A DNA stretch of 33,791 nucleotides from Candidatus Macondimonas diazotrophica (GTDB lineage Bacteria > Pseudomonadota > Gammaproteobacteria > UBA5335): positions 1 through 33,791 of the forward strand of contig NZ_SRIO01000021.1 in the NCBI RefSeq assembly GCF_004684205.1, given 5' to 3'. Shown here in pieces: positions 9,290 to 29,490 of this stretch (position 1 is the stretch's first letter; every line of letters begins with the position of its first letter). The notes beneath the pieces are model-generated. The model did not search any database, had not been told where the DNA came from, and worked only from the letters and a program-made list of their open reading frames with translations. The position numbers and the translations under genes are program-made.

Positions 9290-10843
9290 TCAGATTCCCC
9301 CATGCTGGGGATGGGCCCGATCCATCGGCGCCTTGAGCTTGTTCAAGGCATTGAGATAGGCTTTGGCCGAGGCGACGATGATGTCCACATCCGCACCCTG
9401 TCCATTGACGATATGCGCACCATCCGCCAATCGCACCGTCACGTCCCCTTGGGCATCGGTTCCCGAGGTGATGGCATTGACCGAATAGAGCAAGAGTGTT
9501 GCGGTCGCATCGCAGCCCTTGATGATCGCCTTGAAAACCGCGTCGACCGGGCCGGCACCCGTGGCCACCACCCGGCGCTCTGCACCGTCGATGCGCAAGG
9601 TCACCTCAGCCGATGGCAACTCTCCGGTCTCGGAACAAACCTTGAGCGAAACCAACTGTAGGTGTTCGTTGGCGCTGCTCCATTCGACATCGGTCACCAA
9701 GGCCAGCAGATCATCGTCAAAGATCTCGTGCTTTCTATCCGCCAGAATCTTGAAACGCTGAAACGCCTCATTGACTTCCGACTCGCTCTCCAGAACCACA
9801 CCCAGTTCGCTCAGGCGAGTGCGAAAGGCATTTCGGCCGGAATGCTTGCCCAGAACGAGCCGATTGGTATCCCAGCCGACATCTTGGGCGCGCATGATTT
9901 CATAGGTTTCGCGGCTTTTGAGGACGCCGTCCTGATGGATACCGGATTCGTGTGCAAAGGCGTTGGCACCCACTATCGCCTTGTTGGGCTGCACAGGGAA
10001 ACCCGTGATTGTCGAGACCAGCCGGGAACAGGGCACGATCTGAGTCGTGTCGATTGCAAGCTCCAGGTCATAAAAGTCGCGCCGCGTCCGCAGCGCCATC
10101 ACGATTTCCTCCAGCGCTGCATTGCCAGCGCGCTCGCCCAGGCCATTCAGCGTGCACTCCACCTGTCGCGCGCCCTGGGTAACCGCCGCAAGGGAATTGG
10201 CAACCGCCAGCCCCAGGTCGTTATGGCAGTGAACGGAAAAAATCGCCTTGTCACTATTGGGAACCCGTTCGATCAGACGCCCGATGAGCGCGCCGAACTG
10301 CTCGGGAACGTTATAGCCGACGGTATCGGGAATGTTGATGGTGCGAGCGCCCGCCTTGATCACGGCCTCCACGATGCGACACAGGAAGTCAGGTTCCGAA
10401 CGCCCGGCATCTTCCGGAGAAAACTCCACATCATCCGTATACTGACGGGCATGACGCACGGCCCATACGGCCTGCTCCACTACCTCGTCGGGCTGCAAAC
10501 CGAGTTTGCGCTCCATATGGATCGGCGATGTCGCGATGAACGTATGGATACGACCACGGGCAGCGGGCCTCAACGCTTCGGCCGCCCGATCGATATCTTC
10601 ACCCTTGGCACGGGCCAGCGCGCAGACGATACTCTCGCGCACCGTCTCGGCAACCGCACGCACCGCAGCGAAGTCATCCGGACTGGCAATCGGAAAACCC
10701 GCCTCGATGACATCCACACGCAAGCGTTCCAACGCGCTCGCGATGCGCAACTTCTCCTCACGGGTCATCGACGCACCCGGACTTTGTTCACCATCCCGCA
10801 GCGTAGTGTCGAAAATCATCAGATGGGGAATCGAGGATCCCAT
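9290..10843 (-). CDS. leuA: 2-isopropylmalate synthase
   Basis: The 517-residue protein condenses acetyl-CoA with 2-oxoisovalerate in the first committed step of leucine synthesis. The catalytic barrel carries [16 protein letters not shown] near the N-terminus, with the metal-binding Asp, and the [17 protein letters not shown] block containing the HxH metal ligands. [14 protein letters not shown] and [12 protein letters not shown] follow. The C-terminal part after about residue 390 is the LeuA allosteric domain, which senses leucine. The length is standard for the long form. I prefer the ATG at 10843, 7 nt after GGAG; a GTG two codons earlier is too close to it. It lies 53 nt after pssA. Confidence 0.96.
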
Positions 10844-10896
10844 GTTCACTCTCCAAAGCCTGCTGGAACGCGCCGGCTAACGATGACCCGCCAGCA

Positions 10897-11688
10897 TCAA
10901 TCGAGAACGGCCCGCTTCCTGCGGCGGCGCCACGCGGCCTGAGCAACGCCGACGAGCATGTAGCCAAAAAAACCGAGAAACAAGATCAGCGGCGGATTGA
11001 ATGCGATCAGAACCAATCCGCCGACCATGATCAGTAGATAACGAAACGGCACCCGCTCAGCGAGCTTGATGTCCTTGAAGCTGTAATAGCGGATATTGCT
11101 GACCATGAGCGCACCGGCACTGGCCGTGACCAATGCCGCCGGGATGCTCATGGTGACTCCGCTGATTCCGCTATCGGCACAGACCCACACCAGGCCGGTC
11201 ACCGCCGCAGCCGCCGACGGGCTCGGCAGCCCGACGAAGTAGCGTCGGCTGATCTCAGTCGATTGGGTATTGAAGCGAGCCAACCGGAGCGCGGCACCGA
11301 CGGCATAGATGAATGCGGTGAGCCAGCCAACCTGCCCCCAGTGCCAGCCAAACTGGGACAGTTCGCGCAGCGCCCAGAGATAGACGATCAAACTGGGCGC
11401 CAACCCGAAACTCACCATGTCCGCCAGGCTGTCGTACTCGCGACCGAATTCGCTCTGTGTATGGGTCAGTCGTGCAACCCGCCCATCCAGACCGTCGAGC
11501 AAGCCCGCCAGGAAAACGGCCATCGCCGCCTGCAGAAACAGCCCATCGATCGCCGCAACAATGCCATAGAACCCGCCGAAAAGCGTTCCAGTCGTCAGCA
11601 GATTGGGCAGCAGATAGATTCCGCGGCGGCGTGGCCGTCGGGGTTGTTGCGGCGCAGACGGCAGGGCGGATTCATCCACGTCAGGCAT
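10897..11688 (-). CDS. pssA: CDP-diacylglycerol--serine O-phosphatidyltransferase
   Basis: The 263-residue integral membrane protein makes phosphatidylserine from CDP-diacylglycerol and serine, the precursor of phosphatidylethanolamine. The CDP-alcohol phosphatidyltransferase signature is complete: D68-G69, A72-R73, G82, D86 and D90 (DGRVAR...EFGREYDSLAD). An arginine-rich segment (PRRPRRRG, about 16-23) precedes the first of several hydrophobic spans. PNLLTTGTLFGGFYGI is the usual PssA N-terminal motif. The ATG at 11688 has AGGAG 8 nt upstream; the GTG six codons earlier contributes to that site and is less likely. pssA between ilvC and leuA is seen in many beta- and gammaproteobacteria. Confidence 0.95.
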   Translation of the reverse strand: MPDVDESALPSAPQQPRRPRRRGIYLLPNLLTTGTLFGGFYGIVAAIDGLFLQAAMAVFLAGLLDGLDGRVARLTHTQSEFGREYDSLADMVSFGLAPSLIVYLWALRELSQFGWHWGQVGWLTAFIYAVGAALRLARFNTQSTEISRRYFVGLPSPSAAAAVTGLVWVCADSGISGVTMSIPAALVTASAGALMVSNIRYYSFKDIKLAERVPFRYLLIMVGGLVLIAFNPPLILFLGFFGYMLVGVAQAAWRRRRKRAVLD

Positions 11689-11719
11689 CGAGACTGCTCC
11701 TGTCACCCGTCACGGCAGA

Positions 11720-11744
11720 TTCGGTCGCGTTATCTGCGACCGAA
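11720..11744. repeat. perfect 9-7-9 inverted repeat upstream of pssA
   Basis: TTCGGTCGC and GCGACCGAA flank a 7-nt spacer, 32-56 nt before the pssA ATG. There is no T-tract, so it is unlikely to be a terminator for ilvC. It could be an operator, or an RNA hairpin in a pssA leader (processing or stability). Confidence 0.5.
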
Positions 11745-11848
11745 ATCCTGAAAGTCGCTCGGCCCTGGGGCAGATGAAACCACGTCACAGTCGTCCCTGC
11801 TCAGGGAAGTCGTCGCACAATGCGGCTTGCATACCGCTCCGGGACTGC

Positions 11849-13416
<1,568 letters not shown>

Positions 13417-13418
13417 GC

Positions 13419-15122
13419 TTACACCAGAATCATTTCGTTCTGCCCGGCACCGGCCGGGATCATGGGATACACATTCTCGGTCTGATCGGTCACGAAATCG
13501 AGCAACACCAACCGATCCTTCATCGCCAGCGCTTCGTCCAGCGCCGCCCGCACATCGCCCGGCCGCTCGATACGCCGGCCAACGTGGCCGAATGCCTCGG
13601 CGAGACCCACGAAATCGGGCAGTGCTTCCATATAGGACATGGCGTAGCGTTTCTGGTAGAAGAACTCCTGCCACTGGCGCACCATGCCCATGTAGCGGTT
13701 GTTCAACAGCACGATCTTGATCGGCAGGCCGTATTGCAGCGCCGTGGACAGCTCCTGGATGCACATGATGAAGCTGGCCTCGCCAGTGACACAGGCCACC
13801 GTTTCCTTCGGAAAGGCCAACTGCGCCCCGATGGCCGCAGGCAGACCGAAGCCCATGGTGCCGAGACCGCCCGAGTTGATCCAGCGATTCGGCTTGTCGA
13901 ATTTGTAGTATTGGGCAGCCCACATCTGATGCTGGCCCACATCGGAGGTGACGTAGGCGTCGCCACCGGTCGCCGCATAGAGCTGCTCGATCACATACTG
14001 CGGCTTGATCAGCTCATCATTGGCCTTGTAAGCCAAACATTCCGTGGCGCGCCATTCCTCAATCTGCCGCCACCATTCTCCCAGGGCCTGAGCATCGGGA
14101 CCGCGTCCGGCAGCGCGCGTTTCCTCGAGCAGGGCCACCATCTGCCCCAAGACGTTCCGCACAGAACCGACGATCGGGATGTCCACCCGCACGGTTTTGG
14201 AAATCGACGCGGGATCGATGTCCACATGCACGATCTTGGCGTAGGGACAGAATTTTTCGATGTTGCCGGTTACCCGGTCATCGAAACGGGCACCGATGGC
14301 GATCAGCACGTCGCAATGGTGCATCGCCATATTGGCTTCGTAGGTGCCATGCATGCCCAGCATCCCCACGAACTGCCGATCGGTTGCAGGATACCCACCC
14401 AGCCCCATGAGGGTGTTGGTGACCGGATAACCCAGTTGCCGGCAGACTTGGGTGAACACCTCCGCCGCACCGTCGAGCACCACCCCGCCGCCGGAATAGA
14501 TCATGGGGCGTTTGGCGGACAGCATCAGCTCCAGCGCCTTGCGGATCTGGCCCGGATGACCCTTGTCGACCGGACGGTAGGAACGCATGTCCACCCGCTC
14601 GGGATAACTGAATTCACTGCGCGCGATGAGCACGTCCTTGGGGATGTCCACCACCACCGGACCCGGGCGGCCGCTGGTGGCAATGTAGAATGCCTTCTTG
14701 ATGGTCGCCGCGAGATCGGCGACATCTTTCACCAGAAAGTTGTGTTTCACGCAGGGACGGGTAATGCCCACCGAGTCGACTTCCTGGAAAGCATCCGAAC
14801 CGATCACCCCGGTCGGCACCTGGCCGGTCAAGATGACCATCGGGATGGAATCCATGTAGGCCGTCGCAATCCCGGTTACGGCATTGGTCACGCCTGGGCC
14901 GGAGGTGACCAGCACCACGCCAGGACGGCCGGTCGCGCGCGCGTAGCCATCCGCTGCATGGGTCGCGCCCTGTTCGTGGCGTACCAGAATATGCTTGACG
15001 ACATCCTGCAGATTGAGCGCATCGTAGAGCGGCAGAACCGCCCCACCGGGATAACCAAAAACATATTCCACCGCCTCGCGCTTGAGGCTTTCGACGACGA
15101 TTTCCGAACCGGACAATTCCAC
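13419..15122 (-). CDS. ilvB: acetolactate synthase large (catalytic) subunit
   Basis: The ThDP-dependent enzyme (567 aa) makes 2-acetolactate from pyruvate or 2-aceto-2-hydroxybutyrate with 2-oxobutyrate. [17 protein letters not shown] and [18 protein letters not shown] (with the catalytic Glu) open the PYR domain. The FAD/ThDP region and [17 protein letters not shown], typical of AHAS, follow. The ThDP motif reads GEA rather than GDG; similar GE variants occur in related bacterial AHAS as I recall them. I chose a GTG start at 15122: AGGAG lies 8 nt upstream and the family's conserved ELSG-EIVV begins right there. In-frame starts at 15167 (ATG) and 15227 (GTG) lack a good ribosome-binding site. 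It heads the operon. Confidence 0.94.
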
Positions 15123-15192
15123 GCTCGCTGCTCCTGACCCGAATGGGCCTTCCACCGCAACCGGCATACGTTCAATCGCTATGCCGCAAACG

Positions 15193-15214
15193 AAAAAAGA
15201 CGCCTGCTGGCGCC
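15193..15214 (-). terminator. terminator-like hairpin in the ilvB leader (possible attenuator)
   Basis: On the - strand, GGCGCC, a 4-nt loop and GGCGTC form a 6-bp stem (one G-T pair) followed at once by six T's. It lies about 70 nt upstream of the proposed ilvB GTG. The position in the leader of a branched-chain operon suggests attenuation, but I see no leader peptide rich in Ile, Val or Leu. A short ATG frame of 14 codons overlaps it. Confidence 0.4.
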
Positions 15215-15343
15215 ATGTGGCTAGCACCCCCTGCAGAAGGGTGAACTGCCAAAAATACTTGTCCCCCCCTTGGAAATCAAGTCAAATTGTGCGTTTGGCC
15301 CTCGCCCGGATCGGTCACCCGCTTCTTCAGGAGACTCTCGAAA

Positions 15344-22770: not shown

Positions 22771-24174
22771 TCACCGTGCGCCCTTGCCGAACAACACCAC
22801 TTCCACGGTTAGCAGGCAGATCATCAGATCGAACAGCAGACTTTGGTGTTTCAGATAGTAGAGATCGTATTGCAGCTTCTCCCGCGCATCGGCCTCGGTA
22901 TCACCATAGCGGTAGTTGAGCTGGGCCCACCCGGTCAGGCCCGGCGCGATGCGGTGGCGCACATCATAGAACGGAATGTTGCGGGCCAACTCGGCAACGA
23001 ACTCCGGGCGTTCCGGCCGCGGCCCGACCAGACTCATTTCCCCGCGCAGGACATTGAACAGCTGCGGCAATTCGTCAATGCGATATTTGCGCAGGATACG
23101 CCCGACACGGGTAACACGCGGATCGTCGCGTTGCGCCCAGACGGGCACACCGCTCCGCTCGGCATCCACGCTCATGCTGCGAAATTTCCAGATCGAAAAG
23201 GCGTGCCCCCCCCTTCCCGTGCGGATCTGTCGATAGAACACGGGTGCATCCAACCCGTCTTCCACGCGAATCGCCAGCGCGGCCAACACCATGAACGGGG
23301 CCACCAGACCTAACAACAGCATCGCCGCCACTGTATCGAACACCCGCTTGCCGTAAGGATAGAGTGCGCTGCCGAATCCACCTGTGGTGTATACCAGCGC
23401 TGCCGGCTGGAGCAGATCCAGAAACACCTTGCCGGTCTCCCGCTCGGCAAAACCGATCGCGTCGGTTACCCGAATTCCCAAAGCACGGCATTCCAGCAAT
23501 GCCTGCAACGGGAGCAAACCGCGTCGTTCATCGGGTGCCACGACGATTTCATCCACCCGCAGCCGGCGCGCCAATTCATCCAGTCGATTCGTGGCAACGC
23601 GCACGATCGGCCCGGGCAGCGTTTCGGCCAGTTGATCGGCGGATAGCGGCATGAACCCAACCAGCCGCGATCCGCGCGGTTTCCCCAAGCGGGCGAACAG
23701 ATCCGCGGCCCGCTGTCCGGCGCCCAGCACCAATACCCGCGGCTTGATCAGTGCGGCTTCCCCCCAGCGCTGAAACAGGATCTGCGTGGTAAGCAGCGCG
23801 GGCGCGACGAACAGCAAGGTCAGCGCCATGATGCCGCGTCCCAGATACAGACCAGGCAACAGGTAGTACAACAGCGCCAGACCCGCCCAGGTCAGGCCGC
23901 AAGCCGCCACCACCCGAACCGCCATTTCCTCTGTCCGCATCAGCGCGAAACGCTGATACATGCCCAAGGCGTACATCGTCGTCACTAGCACCAGCGAGAA
24001 TGCGGCTACCTTGGGTGCCAGCGGGGCAATGCTCTCCACGCCGGGCCGGCCGACATGAATGAAACGCAAGGCGGTCGCCGCAAGAACGGCGAGCGCACTC
24101 AGCCCCATCTGCACCAGCGCCAGGGCCATGTAGCGATCGTGAAAAGCCTGTTTGATCGGGCGCAACGGCATCAT
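22771..24174 (-). CDS. polyprenyl-phosphate sugar-1-phosphate transferase (exopolysaccharide initiation)
   Basis: The 467-residue protein has an N-terminal half with about four membrane spans and a nucleotide-binding-like middle (PRVLVLGAGQRAADLF, about 146-160). The C-terminal bacterial sugar-transferase domain starts at KRVFDTVAAMLLLG (about 275), with WKFRSMSVDAE, RKYRIDELPQLFNVLRGEMSLVGPRPERPEF and PGLTGWAQLNYRYG. It attaches a sugar phosphate to undecaprenyl phosphate and so starts repeat-unit synthesis at the inner membrane. The protein looks like the EpsB_2/TIGR03013 type found with exosortase (PEP-CTERM) systems, but none of those partners lies in this window. A promoter candidate lies in the 84-nt gap upstream. 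Confidence 0.92.
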   Translation of the reverse strand: MMPLRPIKQAFHDRYMALALVQMGLSALAVLAATALRFIHVGRPGVESIAPLAPKVAAFSLVLVTTMYALGMYQRFALMRTEEMAVRVVAACGLTWAGLALLYYLLPGLYLGRGIMALTLLFVAPALLTTQILFQRWGEAALIKPRVLVLGAGQRAADLFARLGKPRGSRLVGFMPLSADQLAETLPGPIVRVATNRLDELARRLRVDEIVVAPDERRGLLPLQALLECRALGIRVTDAIGFAERETGKVFLDLLQPAALVYTTGGFGSALYPYGKRVFDTVAAMLLLGLVAPFMVLAALAIRVEDGLDAPVFYRQIRTGRGGHAFSIWKFRSMSVDAERSGVPVWAQRDDPRVTRVGRILRKYRIDELPQLFNVLRGEMSLVGPRPERPEFVAELARNIPFYDVRHRIAPGLTGWAQLNYRYGDTEADAREKLQYDLYYLKHQSLLFDLMICLLTVEVVLFGKGAR

Positions 24175-24258: not shown

Positions 24259-25614
24259 TCAGACGGCCCGCGTCGTCAGACGCAGCATCTGATTGACAGC
24301 CTCTTCCAGCTGCTTGAGGGTGGCGCATTCGCGCACCACATGGCACAGCGGCTGGTAGGTTGCAATGATCGAGTCACCAGTGTTCCAGGTCACGAATGGC
24401 TCCGGATTGAGCCAGATCAGATGGCGACTGCGCTGACCGATGAGCTTGAGCAGATCGGCGCGCGGATCGCCCAGATTGTTGCGCGCATCACCGAGGAACA
24501 GAACGGTCGTGCGTGGCGTGAAGGCATCCAGATGTCGCTCCACCAGATGCGCGAGCGTGCGCCCGTAGTCAGTCGGACCGACGGGCGCTGCCGCCTGCGC
24601 GGCCTCCAGCGCGGTCGCCACCGGTTGTTCATCGAAGATGTCGGTGACTTCCACCACATCGGCGCAGAACGTGAAGCTGCGGATGCGATCCATCACCTCG
24701 CTCAGGGAATGCAGGAACAGCAGCAAAAAGCGCGTGTAATCGGAGACCGAGCGACTCACATCGCAGATCACCACCACACGCGGTCGATCGACGCGGATGC
24801 GCCGCCAATGGATGTTGAACAGCTCACCATCGAAGCCCATGTTGCGGCGCAGGGTGCGGCGGACATCGAGCTGGCCACGCCGGGCTCGGCGCGCTCGGCG
24901 TGCATGCTGGCGCGCCAGACGCCGCGCCAGACGCTGGGTCAGTTCGGTCATGCGGGCGATGTCGTCTTCTTCCAGCTTGTTGAGCCGCCGCTCCGACAAT
25001 GCCTGTTCGCGCAAGGCCTCGCCCGAAGCGCCGGTATACAGGGCCACCTGTTGCTGAACGAAGGTCTTCATCTGATCGATCAGGTAGGCCCGCCCCTCGC
25101 GCAGCCGGCGGGCACGATCCGAGCTGCCCTGCCCGCTGCGCTCGAGCTGCGCCAGTTCCTGATCGAGTCGATCGAGTCCCATACGGGCGGTGAGCCTCTG
25201 CATGACCACCCCACGCTGGGTGAACAGCGTCATCTCGCTCACCCCCACCTCGCGCACCGCCTCGCGCAGGCTCGACATCAGCCCGGCGCGATCGCCGCGC
25301 AAGAGCTGCTCGACCAGTGTCGATGCCTCGCTTTCGCTCTCGGGGGCGATTGCTCCCTCGTCGGTCGCCAGATAGTCCTGATGATCCGCATCGGCGAAGG
25401 CCTCCGCCGTGAAGTAACGATCGAAGGCCGCAAAGAATCGCGCCTTTTCGTCCACGGTCTTGGCCAGCGTCACGCCCAGACCTTCGCGCAGCACCTCGCG
25501 GTCACCGTAGCCCAGCACCCGCACCACCTCGTGCGCCTCCAGGGCCTCGGCGACGGATACCCGCACCTGTGCGCCACGTACCGCCTGGATGAAATCGGCC
25601 AGTACCCGATCCAT
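24259..25614 (-). CDS. CoxE-type von Willebrand factor A domain protein
   Basis: The 451-residue protein has a VWA domain at about 275-440. The MIDAS metal site DVSRSVS is at 285-291 (DxSxS), and the domain later has GPTDYGRTLAH (MIDAS Thr/Asp region) and LFLGDARNN. A strongly basic stretch (228-247, many Arg) precedes it. The N-terminal 200 residues are helical and acidic in places. CoxE-like proteins pair with MoxR-type ATPases to insert cofactors or remodel partner enzymes, as in CO dehydrogenase maturation. The gene starts 4 nt after the MoxR gene, so they form an operon; the target here is unknown but may be the upstream acyl-CoA-dehydrogenase-like protein. Confidence 0.9.
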   Translation of the reverse strand: MDRVLADFIQAVRGAQVRVSVAEALEAHEVVRVLGYGDREVLREGLGVTLAKTVDEKARFFAAFDRYFTAEAFADADHQDYLATDEGAIAPESESEASTLVEQLLRGDRAGLMSSLREAVREVGVSEMTLFTQRGVVMQRLTARMGLDRLDQELAQLERSGQGSSDRARRLREGRAYLIDQMKTFVQQQVALYTGASGEALREQALSERRLNKLEEDDIARMTELTQRLARRLARQHARRARRARRGQLDVRRTLRRNMGFDGELFNIHWRRIRVDRPRVVVICDVSRSVSDYTRFLLLFLHSLSEVMDRIRSFTFCADVVEVTDIFDEQPVATALEAAQAAAPVGPTDYGRTLAHLVERHLDAFTPRTTVLFLGDARNNLGDPRADLLKLIGQRSRHLIWLNPEPFVTWNTGDSIIATYQPLCHVVRECATLKQLEEAVNQMLRLTTRAV

Positions 25615-25618
25615 CAGC

Positions 25619-26560
25619 TCAGCCCGTCACGACGGTGCGGGACTCATGAAGCAGCGTTGTCATCTCCTGTTCGACACGGCGAATGTCCTCCTCGAACTTC
25701 AGGAACACGCTCAAGGTTTCGCGCACCAGGCTTTCCTCCAGCGCGTCGGCATGCATCAGCACCAGCACACGTGCCCAGTCCACCGTCTCGCTGACCGACG
25801 GATGTTTCTTGAGATCGACTTGGCGGATGCGCTGAATGAAGGCAACCAACTGATCGCGCAGCGCCTCGTCGATCCCCGGCACGCGCACGCCCACGATGCG
25901 CCGTTCCAGTGCTGCGTCGGGATAGGGAATGTACAGATGCAGACAGCGACGCTTGAGCGCATCGCTCATCTCGCGGGTGTTGTTGCTGGTGAGCAGCACG
26001 AACGGGCGATGCTGCGCGGCAATGGTCCCGATTTCGGGCACCGTGACCTGGAAATCCGACAGAATCTCGAGCAGCAGTGCCTCGAATTCCTGATCCGACT
26101 TGTCCACCTCGTCGACCAGCAGGACGCAGCCCTCGGGTTCCTGCAAAGCCTTCAGCAGCGGACGGGGTTCGAGAAAGTGCTCGGAGAAGAACACATCCTC
26201 ATGCGCATGCAGGCGGGCGGTCGCCGCCTCCAGCGTCACGGCGTCGCCCATCACCTCGTGCAGTTTCTCTTTCAGCAACTGGATATAGAGCAACTGCTTG
26301 CCGTATTTCCATTCATAGATCGCCTTGGATTCGTCGAGCCCTTCATAGCACTGCAGACGCACCAGCGGCTGCTCCAGATAGCGCGCCACGGTCTTGGCCA
26401 GCTCGGTCTTGCCGACTCCCGCGGGGCCTTCGACCAGGATGGGACGGCCCAGATGATGCGCCACGAACAGACAGGTCGCGATGCGACGACTGCAGATATA
26501 GTCCATCGCGGCAAAATCCTCGACGATGGCGTCGACGCTGGCGAAACGTTCCAAACTCAC
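25619..26560 (-). CDS. MoxR-family AAA+ ATPase
   Basis: The 313-residue ATPase has Walker A GPAGVGKT at 45-52, Walker B CVLLVDEVDKS at 145-155, sensor 1 in LLTSNNTREMSDALKRRC and the arginine of that last motif. YEGLDESKAIYEWKYGKQLL is typical of the CoxD/MoxR branch. Such ATPases act as chaperones with VWA-domain proteins in the cytoplasm. The start is a GTG at 26560, with GGGAG 9 nt upstream overlapping the end of the upstream gene. It sits tightly between the acyl-CoA-dehydrogenase-like gene and the VWA gene. Confidence 0.92.
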   Translation of the reverse strand: MSLERFASVDAIVEDFAAMDYICSRRIATCLFVAHHLGRPILVEGPAGVGKTELAKTVARYLEQPLVRLQCYEGLDESKAIYEWKYGKQLLYIQLLKEKLHEVMGDAVTLEAATARLHAHEDVFFSEHFLEPRPLLKALQEPEGCVLLVDEVDKSDQEFEALLLEILSDFQVTVPEIGTIAAQHRPFVLLTSNNTREMSDALKRRCLHLYIPYPDAALERRIVGVRVPGIDEALRDQLVAFIQRIRQVDLKKHPSVSETVDWARVLVLMHADALEESLVRETLSVFLKFEEDIRRVEQEMTTLLHESRTVVTG

Positions 26561-26564
26561 GCGT

Positions 26565-27656
26565 TCACACTCCCTGTGTCATGGTCTGATCGAGCAGTTG
26601 ACGGCCCAATCGGTCGTGGCCACGGGATTCACCCCGCAGCAGAAAAAAACTGACGTGTTGCAGCGCACTGACGTCGCCGGGCGCCAGACCGGCCTGTCGC
26701 GCCAGAGAGACCAGACCCGCCTGCGCGATCTTGAGCTGCCCCAAAGCTCCGGTGAGCATGGCCTCATGCCGCCCATCCGAAGCCGGACACGCAGCAAGAT
26801 GACTCAGCGTCGCCGCCAGCGCCGCGACCGGTGCCATGGCCTGCCCCAGTTCCCCGGCCACCACCTTGCCGCTCGCGGCAATGGCATCGCCCAGCCGGCC
26901 GGCCAATCCCAGGGCATACGCCAGGAGGAAGGCTTGCTCACCCAAGCGAAACGGTTTGGCCCATTCCGTCAACGCGCTGCCTTCCGCCCCCAGCAGGGCC
27001 GAGGCCGGCAGCATCACTTCGGAAAAGTGCACACGGGCATGACTGGCCGGCCACAGTGAAACCGGGGCGGTCACGTTTTCCACGGTCACACCCGCAGCCG
27101 CGCGCGGCACCGCGAAGAGGGAAAATTGTTGCCGGCCAGCGTGGCGCGCCGTGACCGCCAGGACCAGAAAGACGGCAGCTTCCGCGCCATGGGTCACCGG
27201 TGACTTGACCCCGGACAATCGCCACGTATCGCCGATTCGGCCGGCATGAGTGGACAGATACTTGGGGTTGGCCCCGACCCCGGGTTCTGACGTGGCGACC
27301 GCCACCAGTTGCCGGCCCTGAATCAGCGCATCGCGCACCGCGGTCCGTTCCGGGTCGCCATCGGCGACCGCGAAATAATGGCCGGCCACCCACGCTTCGA
27401 ACAACACGGCAAGCGCCGGTCCGGCCGGCCAATTCGCACGCCCGAGCCGCTCCGCCAGCGCCGAAAGTGAAAGCGCATCGCCGCCGTCGGCGTCTGTCGA
27501 AACCGGCGAACTGATCCTGATCAAGCCGTTGGCCGCGACGGCCTGCCACCATGTCCACGGAAAGCCTTCAGCGGGCGCCGGGAGTTCGGGCAATTGCGTG
27601 GTAACGGCATCGGCCAGATCCGACCTCAGCCAGCAGGAGGAAAACAAACCCGTCAT
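26565..27656 (-). CDS. acyl-CoA-dehydrogenase-like protein, divergent
   Basis: The 363-residue protein (ATG at 27656) resembles the acyl-CoA dehydrogenase fold. The middle FAD-contact block reads SEPGVGANPKYLSTHAGRIGDTWRLSGVKSPVTHGAEA, matching the family's T-E-P-G-S-D...G-K-S/T pattern. The C-terminal helical domain is weakly conserved: I do not see the catalytic Glu block or the usual C-terminal arginine motif, so dehydrogenase activity is doubtful. The first 90 residues (small, Cys and Trp-containing) also differ from typical family members. An in-frame TTG at 27737 would add 27 residues. It is the first gene of a cassette with MoxR and VWA genes and is divergent from the IlvD-like gene across a 163-nt gap. 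Confidence 0.7.
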   Translation of the reverse strand: MTGLFSSCWLRSDLADAVTTQLPELPAPAEGFPWTWWQAVAANGLIRISSPVSTDADGGDALSLSALAERLGRANWPAGPALAVLFEAWVAGHYFAVADGDPERTAVRDALIQGRQLVAVATSEPGVGANPKYLSTHAGRIGDTWRLSGVKSPVTHGAEAAVFLVLAVTARHAGRQQFSLFAVPRAAAGVTVENVTAPVSLWPASHARVHFSEVMLPASALLGAEGSALTEWAKPFRLGEQAFLLAYALGLAGRLGDAIAASGKVVAGELGQAMAPVAALAATLSHLAACPASDGRHEAMLTGALGQLKIAQAGLVSLARQAGLAPGDVSALQHVSFFLLRGESRGHDRLGRQLLDQTMTQGV

Positions 27657-27819
27657 CGAGGACCCATCAAATCCAGCGCAACTCAACTGAGCGAACCCAT
27701 TCAGAGCAGCCAGCGTAGCAAACCCGTCACCGTTCAACCATCAGCCTTCGCCTCGCTGGATTCGTCTGCCCTTCCGGAATCACGGCCGTCCCATCCGGTC
27801 TGGTACAGGAGAACGCCCC

Positions 27820-29490
27820 ATGGCCCGCAATGCACGCAGTCATCACCTGACCCAAGGACCACAGCGCACCCCGAACCGGGCCTTGTTCCGCGCAACCGGC
27901 TTTACGGATACTGACTTCGACAAGCCCGTGGTGGGCATTGCCAACGGCTTCAACACAACGGCCCCATGCAACATGGGCCTGAACACACTCGCCGCGCGCG
28001 CAGACTGGGCGCTTCGCGAGGCCGGGGCCATGCCGCAACGCTTCGGAACCATCGCCGTTTCCGGCGGCGTTTCCATGGGGACCCCGGGGGCGCGCTACGC
28101 GCTGGTGTCACGCGAGGTCGTTGCCGATTCCATCGAAACAGTCTGCGATGGCCAGCTCATGGATGGGCTGCTGGCCATCGGCGCCGGTGACAACGACATC
28201 CCAGGCGCCCTGATGGCGATCGCCCGCCTCAACATCCCTGCGGTCTTCGTCCATGGCGGGACCATGAAGCCGGGCCACCTTCATGGTCGTGACCTGAGTA
28301 TCGTCAGTGCCATCGAAGCCGTCGGCGCCTACGGTGCCCAAAGGATCGATTTGCACACATTGCTGGACATCGAACGCCATGCCTGCCCCGGCGCCGGTGG
28401 CGGGATGTCCGCCGCCAACACCATGGCGGCCGCAGCCGAAGCGCTCGGGATGAGTCTGGCGCGCTCCTCGACCGGGGCGGCCGAAGACGCTGAAACGGCG
28501 GACAACGCGGGCGCCTCCGCCCGGGCCTTGATGCGGGCGATCGATCTGAACCTCCGGCCGCGCGATCTGCTCACCCGTGAGGCTTTCGAGAATGCCATCG
28601 CGCTGGTCATGGCGATCGGCGGCTCGACCGATGCGGTCCTGCACCTGCTTGCCATTGCCCATGCTGCCGAGGTGCCGCTGAGCATCGATGATTTCGAGGC
28701 GATTCGGCGCAAGGTGCCGGTTTTGTGTGACCTCAAGCCGGCAGGTCGATACATGACGACCGATTTTCATCGTGCGGGCGGGGTTCCGCAGGTCCTGCGT
28801 TTGCTGCTCGATCATGGTTTGCTGCATGGGGACTCACGCACCATTTCCGGCCGGACCCTGGCCGAAACACTCGCGATCATCCCCGGCGAACCCGACCCAC
28901 AACAAGCTGTCATTCGCCCTTGGCGCGATCCCGTTCACTCCGAAGGTTCGGTGGCCGTTTTTCGGGGGAATCTCGCGCCCGGGGGCGCTGTCGCCTGGAT
29001 TGCGGGTATCACATCGCGCAGCCTCACCGGACCGGCGCGGATCTTCGATTCGGAGCAAGCAGCCCTGGCTGCGATTCTCGACCACCGAATCCATGCGGGC
29101 GATGTCATCGTCATTCGTGGTCAGGGCCCGCAAGGCGGTCCGGGGATGTGTGCACTCATGATCGTCACATCGATCCTCGTCGCGACCGGTTTGGGCCATC
29201 AGGTGGGCTTGATCACCGATGGACGCGTCTCGAGCGATCCCCATAGCCTGGTTGTGGGCCACATCACCCCGGAAGCGGCCGTCGGTGGCCCCATTGCGCT
29301 GCTCCAGGAGAGCGACTCCATCACCATCGATATCGACCATCAGCGCCTTGACGTTCAACTAAGTGAAGCCGATCTGGCCAGCCGACAGGCCCAGTGGCAT
29401 CAACCCGCGGAAACTGCGAAGCCAGGCGCCGTGCTGACCAAATACGCCAAACTGGTCTCCAGCGCCAGTGAAGGCGCGGTGACCCGTTGA
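27820..29490 (+). CDS. IlvD/Edd-family protein, probable pseudoenzyme
   Basis: The 556-residue frame is intact and the whole fold is recognisable from [19 protein letters not shown] to [13 protein letters not shown], the length of dihydroxy-acid dehydratase. Dihydroxy-acid dehydratases need an Fe-S cluster held by three Cys, Mg ligands and a modified Lys. Only C50 (TTAPCN) remains. The usual GGCDKNMPG reads GAGDNDIPG (122-129: Cys to Gly, Lys to Asn); the third Cys is deleted (CPGAGGGM, 189-196); SDG reads SGG (81-83); the E of EGP-GGPGMxE is Q435 and A445. S471 is kept but its GRFSGG context is GRVSSD. AGGAGA precedes the ATG. The gene cannot be called ilvD with confidence; a non-catalytic role is inferred. 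Confidence 0.85.

Follow-up and report, generated by a model that had tools for sequence, protein, structure and literature searches.

The three genes packed on the minus strand at positions 24259-27656 of the stretch analyzed here (the window; 33,791 nucleotides of contig NZ_SRIO01000021.1 from Candidatus Macondimonas diazotrophica) probably specify a single machine, unrecognized so far, that unites a divergent protein of the acyl-CoA dehydrogenase (ACAD) fold with a MoxR-family AAA+ ATPase and a VWA protein. As a working explanation, we tentatively favor a CoxD/CoxE-like remodeling pair joined by a dedicated ACAD-fold third component that would serve as an adaptor or ligand sensor. The case is built on the conserved association of the three genes across lineages, the distinctive rebuilding of the ACAD-like active site, and parallels with other MoxR-VWA systems, which we consider in turn below.

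The cassette is led by the ACAD-like gene (26565-27656; 363 aa from an ATG, with a TTG at 27737 as a possible alternative start), followed by the CoxD-like MoxR ATPase gene (25619-26560; 313 aa, GTG start) and the CoxE-like VWA gene (24259-25614; 451 aa). The ORF coordinates leave gaps of 4 nt at both junctions (26561-26564 and 25615-25618), in agreement with the tight packing described in an earlier note on this DNA. A 163-nt spacer (27657-27819), presumed to be the promoter region, separates the cassette from a divergently oriented IlvD-like gene (27820-29490, plus strand), a neighbor outside the system, while an EpsB-type glycosylphosphotransferase gene lies downstream (22771-24174, minus strand). 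The Pfam matches of the three proteins are, respectively, Acyl-CoA_dh_M only, AAA_5 and VWA_CoxE.

Judged by its sequence features, the MoxR-VWA pair is CoxD/CoxE-like. The ATPase has intact Walker A (GPAGVGKT) and Walker B (LLVDEVD) motifs, and the VWA protein, whose domain ends 13 residues short of the C-terminus, has the complete DxSxS-T-D MIDAS signature (DVSRS, GPTD, and GDA); all three motifs are also intact in the trio-bearing homologs where the motif scan found them. The MoxR protein shares 48% identity with a MoxR encoded by a plasmid in Afipia carboxidovorans OM5, which we take to be CoxD. The cassette thus shares with the CoxD/CoxE system for CO dehydrogenase maturation in Oligotropha/Afipia carboxidovorans the adjacency of the MoxR and VWA genes, the VWA_CoxE domain and this degree of MoxR identity. 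In contrast to that system, it has neither coxMSL nor coxF, carries the ACAD-like gene in the upstream place, and encodes a MoxR of a separate orthologous group that is set apart from other MoxR proteins by a wide score gap. None of the window genes that were scanned matched coxMSL, and the only MoCoBD-type ORF of the genome is on another contig. The best NCBIfam matches of the two proteins are MadB and MadC; however, their scores (326 of 475 and 160 of 600 bits) are far under the curated cut-offs, which led us to reject that identity, and we found no paper using these names in the NCBIfam sense. Likewise, RuBisCO was discarded as a client, its large subunit not being found in this genome, and a defense system was discarded upon PADLOC returning weak AAA matches only. 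The genome also has a second MoxR gene paired with a VWA_CoxE-matching gene (G000:C2:151671-153361), with counterparts of that MoxR in the relatives. In a Steroidobacter MAG, a truncated PQQ-dehydrogenase-like protein and a truncated MoxR share one open frame (L107:77-2644), reflecting either a rearrangement or an assembly chimera.

The ACAD-like family is tied to this one MoxR orthologous group by a linkage that is conserved and apparently obligate. The gene order ACAD-like, MoxR, VWA and then EpsB recurs in five of five relatives from the genus and family of the window's organism. Within the genus, identity amounts to 92-95% for MoxR and 87-92% for the VWA protein, with the ACAD-like relatives being just 51-60% identical to the window copy. 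The downstream EpsB gene is present in all six genomes of the family and in none of the other lineages examined; in each of the six, the cassette heads an exopolysaccharide cluster. Farther afield, a contig scan by MoxR alignment recovered the MoxR-VWA pair, among the matches listed, from Pseudomonadota, Thermodesulfobacteriota, Myxococcota, Chloroflexota and Actinomycetota. An ACAD-like gene with the family motif adjoins the pair in Polaromonas (L078), Rhodopseudomonas (L090) and at least three deltaproteobacterial MAGs (L079, L103, and L105), lying 3' of the VWA gene in the last two. The trio is also present in three further Gammaproteobacteria (G021, G164, and G274), the class to which the window's organism belongs.

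This association was quantified in 369 genomes drawn across the class, each of which had its five top candidates scored with a profile of the ACAD-like family. Full-length members were recovered at 290 bits or more in six genomes, against at most 180 bits for ordinary ACADs; the MoxR profile similarly separated 11 genomes (at least 484 bits) from other MoxR proteins (at most 339 bits). All six ACAD-like holders fall within these 11, with 0-80 nt between the ACAD-like and MoxR genes, and no family member was found without MoxR among the best five candidates per genome. The six are partly related to each other (three from one family and two from one genus), with lineages beyond them supplying the independent cases of linkage. 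In a phylum-wide draw, the family was seen in the window's genome and G021 only. Mapped on the MoxR tree, its presence requires five changes as opposed to 12.9 with shuffled labels, i.e., it is clustered. The conserved linkage to MoxR and VWA, for which the earlier note had called for a gene-neighborhood survey, is therefore borne out by the close relatives, by every member in the class draw and by further lineages. Conversely, the MoxR-VWA pair is frequently devoid of an ACAD-like gene, both at the loci listed and across the 369 genomes. This suggests that the pair is independent of the ACAD-like protein and can act on other things as well.

Comparisons of the ACAD-like protein indicate that it is something other than an ordinary FAD-dependent acyl-CoA dehydrogenase. 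The family forms a separate branch with a support of 100 relative to 34 ordinary ACADs, in a tree that drew long-branch warnings and whose outgroup was chosen by the family's own profile. The predicted structure (AF2; pLDDT 76, pTM 0.77) matches experimental ACAD structures along almost the entire chain (3oib: Z 30.1, rmsd 3.3, 332 residues aligned), such that the ACAD fold, with its helical N-terminal, beta middle and helical C-terminal parts, is predicted to be kept. The family is diagnosed by the motif SEP..G(A/G)(H/N)P, where ordinary ACADs display GSDV; column by column, the GSDV segment has become G(A/G)(H/N/T/S)P, with the Pro in 14 of 14 sequences. The R-x-x-F loop that contacts FAD is deleted (F absent from all 14), the Gly positions of the C-terminal GG motif are replaced, and both the Arg following the base Glu and a Trp are gone. 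At the same time, new invariant residues have appeared, with a Thr turned into His206 and an Asp into Arg237, while the SEP motif, G149, K151, a Thr/Ser at position 155 and Glu240 are retained. The earlier view of the protein as degenerate in its dehydrogenase capacity accords with these losses; its corollary of no obvious catalytic glutamate needs to be divided. It holds for the C-terminal MCAD-type Glu (YEGT), which is absent from the window protein, but not for the LCAD/IVD position on helix G, a base position described previously (PMC11153573), where E240 is invariant in 14 of 14 and is the alignment counterpart of the Glu in the isovaleryl-CoA dehydrogenase E-R pair. Taken with the new His206 and Arg237 and the lost contacts, the persistence of E240 implies a site that was remodeled rather than simply lost. 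The substitution patterns point to a gene under purifying selection that is evolving faster than its partner: dN/dS of the ACAD-like gene is 0.22-0.38 among members of the genus and 0.11 for the G164-G274 pair, versus about 0.06 and 0.014 for MoxR. Candidate plasmid relatives were set aside, since they matched ordinary ACADs and only in part, with coverage below 80% in every case.

A mechanism for such a machine may be outlined by analogy with the NorQ/NorD pair (PMC9976466). The ACAD-like protein would sense a ligand, be it an acyl-CoA, an acyl chain or a flavin, and provide the ATPase with its target or trigger. A finger of the VWA protein would sit in the MoxR pore and its MIDAS would dock on an acidic surface presented by either the ACAD-like protein or the target, the latter then being remodeled via the pore at the expense of ATP hydrolysis. 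That an ACAD fold can take on an adaptor or sensor role is illustrated by ACAD9, which loses FAD and turns into a complex I assembly factor (PMC10716376). As a counterweight to the adaptor reading, the SEP motif, T155 and E240 are kept; the sequence suggests that some flavin or acyl-ligand chemistry may survive in the ACAD-like protein. In a more specific form, which we put forward with still greater reserve, the cassette would be an undescribed MoxR-VWA ternary machine, whose ACAD-fold protein with its rebuilt site (His206, Arg237, and Glu240) doubles as an acyl-CoA/flavin sensor and a target adaptor, in principle an AAA+-driven counterpart of ACAD9. The ACAD9 parallel has its bounds, as that protein is mitochondrial, binds ECSIT, works without an AAA+ ATPase and is still an enzyme if flavinylated.

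Other known systems resemble the cassette in part. NorQ/NorD and other MoxR-VWA chaperone pairs similarly combine a MoxR ring with a MIDAS-containing VWA protein, by a mechanism presumed to be shared (PMC9976466); however, their known clients are mostly metalloenzymes, whereas the protein linked to the present pair has an ACAD fold and no known metal site. The MoxR-vWA ternary conflict systems with VMAP and iSTAND components (PMC7159879) also add a dedicated third protein to MoxR and VWA, but here that protein is of the ACAD fold instead of VMAP-C or iSTAND, and the VWA protein lacks an effector domain at its C-terminus. The word 'acyl' does not occur in the text of that survey (PMC7159879), nor did we find a MoxR-VWA-ACAD system in the open-access literature, where absence is no proof.

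The wider neighborhoods offer some clues to potential targets. No recurrent gene besides MoxR, VWA and ACAD was found around this MoxR orthologous group. Among the immediate neighbors of 35 MoxR-VWA loci, acyl-CoA families are some of the commonest, namely ordinary ACADs (three), AMP-binding proteins of the acyl-CoA ligase type (two), enoyl-CoA hydratases (two) and TesB thioesterases (two), with other families leading 3-5 kb away. As a loose tally on crude gene calls, this enrichment of acyl-CoA enzymes is suggestive only; still, their placement beside several homologous loci makes acyl-CoA metabolism the first place to seek the target. TesB, OmpA, MoaA, TauE and other single neighbors of pairs devoid of the ACAD-like gene yielded no conserved alternative partner. 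In Polaromonas, an ordinary ACAD gene is immediately 5' of the ACAD-like gene (L078:3636-5977), hinting at either a heteromeric pair or a duplication. Ordinary ACADs also adjoin MoxR-VWA at two loci without the ACAD-like family (L094:3745-4350 and L141:4384-5811).

The earlier note had the ACAD-like protein as the client or a sensor of a chaperone system, an idea that the above observations support, the interaction itself being putative. Of its two arms, the main rival of the adaptor or sensor reading is the client model, which we hold to be possible if on the unlikely side: the ACAD-like protein would be a divergent, dedicated flavoenzyme that uses an LCAD/IVD-type catalytic Glu, into which MoxR-VWA loads a cofactor or which it remodels to the active state. 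In the Cbb, Nor and Mxa operons, moxR comes after the genes for its clients. The cox cluster is likewise ordered coxMSLDE (PMC4240915), and the ACAD-like gene is usually at the equivalent place directly 5' of moxR, whereby a client role is natural as well. The invariant E240 matching the IVD catalytic Glu, the retained SEP motif and flavin-side Thr, and the failure to find the family without MoxR among the best five candidates per genome fit the client model too. It is harder to reconcile with the disappearance of the R-x-x-F loop, of the GG motif, of a Trp and of the Arg that follows the Glu, the many MoxR-VWA pairs lacking an ACAD-like gene, and an evolutionary rate much above that of the partners; moreover, we know of no ordinary ACAD that requires a MoxR-VWA-type chaperone. 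An improbable variant would have the ACAD-like protein as the degenerate subunit of an alpha2beta2 dehydrogenase, comparable to ChsE4-ChsE5, with the MoxR-VWA adjacency reflecting maturation of the complex. Subunits lacking the catalytic Glu have precedents (PMC8399759, PMC11153573) and the Polaromonas locus provides a potential partner, but no ordinary ACAD directly adjoins the ACAD-like gene at the other loci examined. Further, in ChsE complexes the FAD ADP-ribose is contacted by the beta subunit (PMC11153573), and it is these contacts that are lost here while the Glu at the catalytic position is kept.

Two remaining explanations would dissociate the ACAD-like gene from the pair or attach it to another gene. 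Ordinary operon packing, i.e., a decaying ACAD placed by chance beside an unrelated CoxDE-like pair, draws on the gene's rapid evolution and on the exopolysaccharide cluster sharing this stretch in the window's family, by which unrelated genes do come to neighbor the cassette. It is disfavored, and in our estimate highly improbable, given the reappearance of the association, and of one common motif, across many lineages, the adjacency in six of six, the signal of purifying selection (dN/dS 0.1-0.4), and the restriction of recurrent neighbors of this MoxR group to MoxR, VWA and ACAD. The other, by which the ACAD-like and IlvD-like genes are two degenerate enzymes in a joint module under one regulatory region, we regard as hardly credible. 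The window does present the divergent IlvD pseudoenzyme pointed out in the earlier note, its start at 27820 on the plus strand being 163 nt from that of the ACAD-like gene: the Cys and Lys of GCDK and the Cys of GACGG, hence two Cys ligands and the Lys, are lost, though it nonetheless scores above the ilvD NCBIfam cut-off. The functional pairing proposed there does not survive comparison with the relatives. The syntenic IlvD is intact in two sister species (G001 and G002), an aldehyde dehydrogenase gene takes the site in a third relative that lacks the short-form IlvD (G003), and in two more (G004 and G005) IlvD is located elsewhere in the genome; the trio also occurs in other lineages without IlvD, and the window's own genome encodes a further IlvD, of the long form, whose CDK motif is intact. 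A conserved ACAD-like/IlvD arrangement is already refuted, and the sharing of a presumed promoter region is incidental: sister species have the syntenic IlvD either in intact form or not at all. Relative to the G008 protein, 35% of residues are changed in the window IlvD-like protein and 21% in the G001 copy; we read the window protein as a lineage-specific pseudoenzyme that underwent decay or reassignment after replacement, with no connection to the cassette. The same window also holds leuA, ilvC, ilvN and ilvB-like genes of branched-chain amino acid synthesis (9293-15227, minus strand).

Returning to the adaptor or sensor reading, its significance lies in the fact that MoxR-VWA pairs are mostly without a known target: an ACAD-fold family beside one MoxR orthologous group gives such a pair a concrete partner. 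This suggests that the reach of MoxR-VWA chaperones may extend from metalloenzymes to acyl-CoA or flavin proteins, and the cassette would then exemplify, in a prokaryote, the conversion of a dehydrogenase fold into part of a chaperone.
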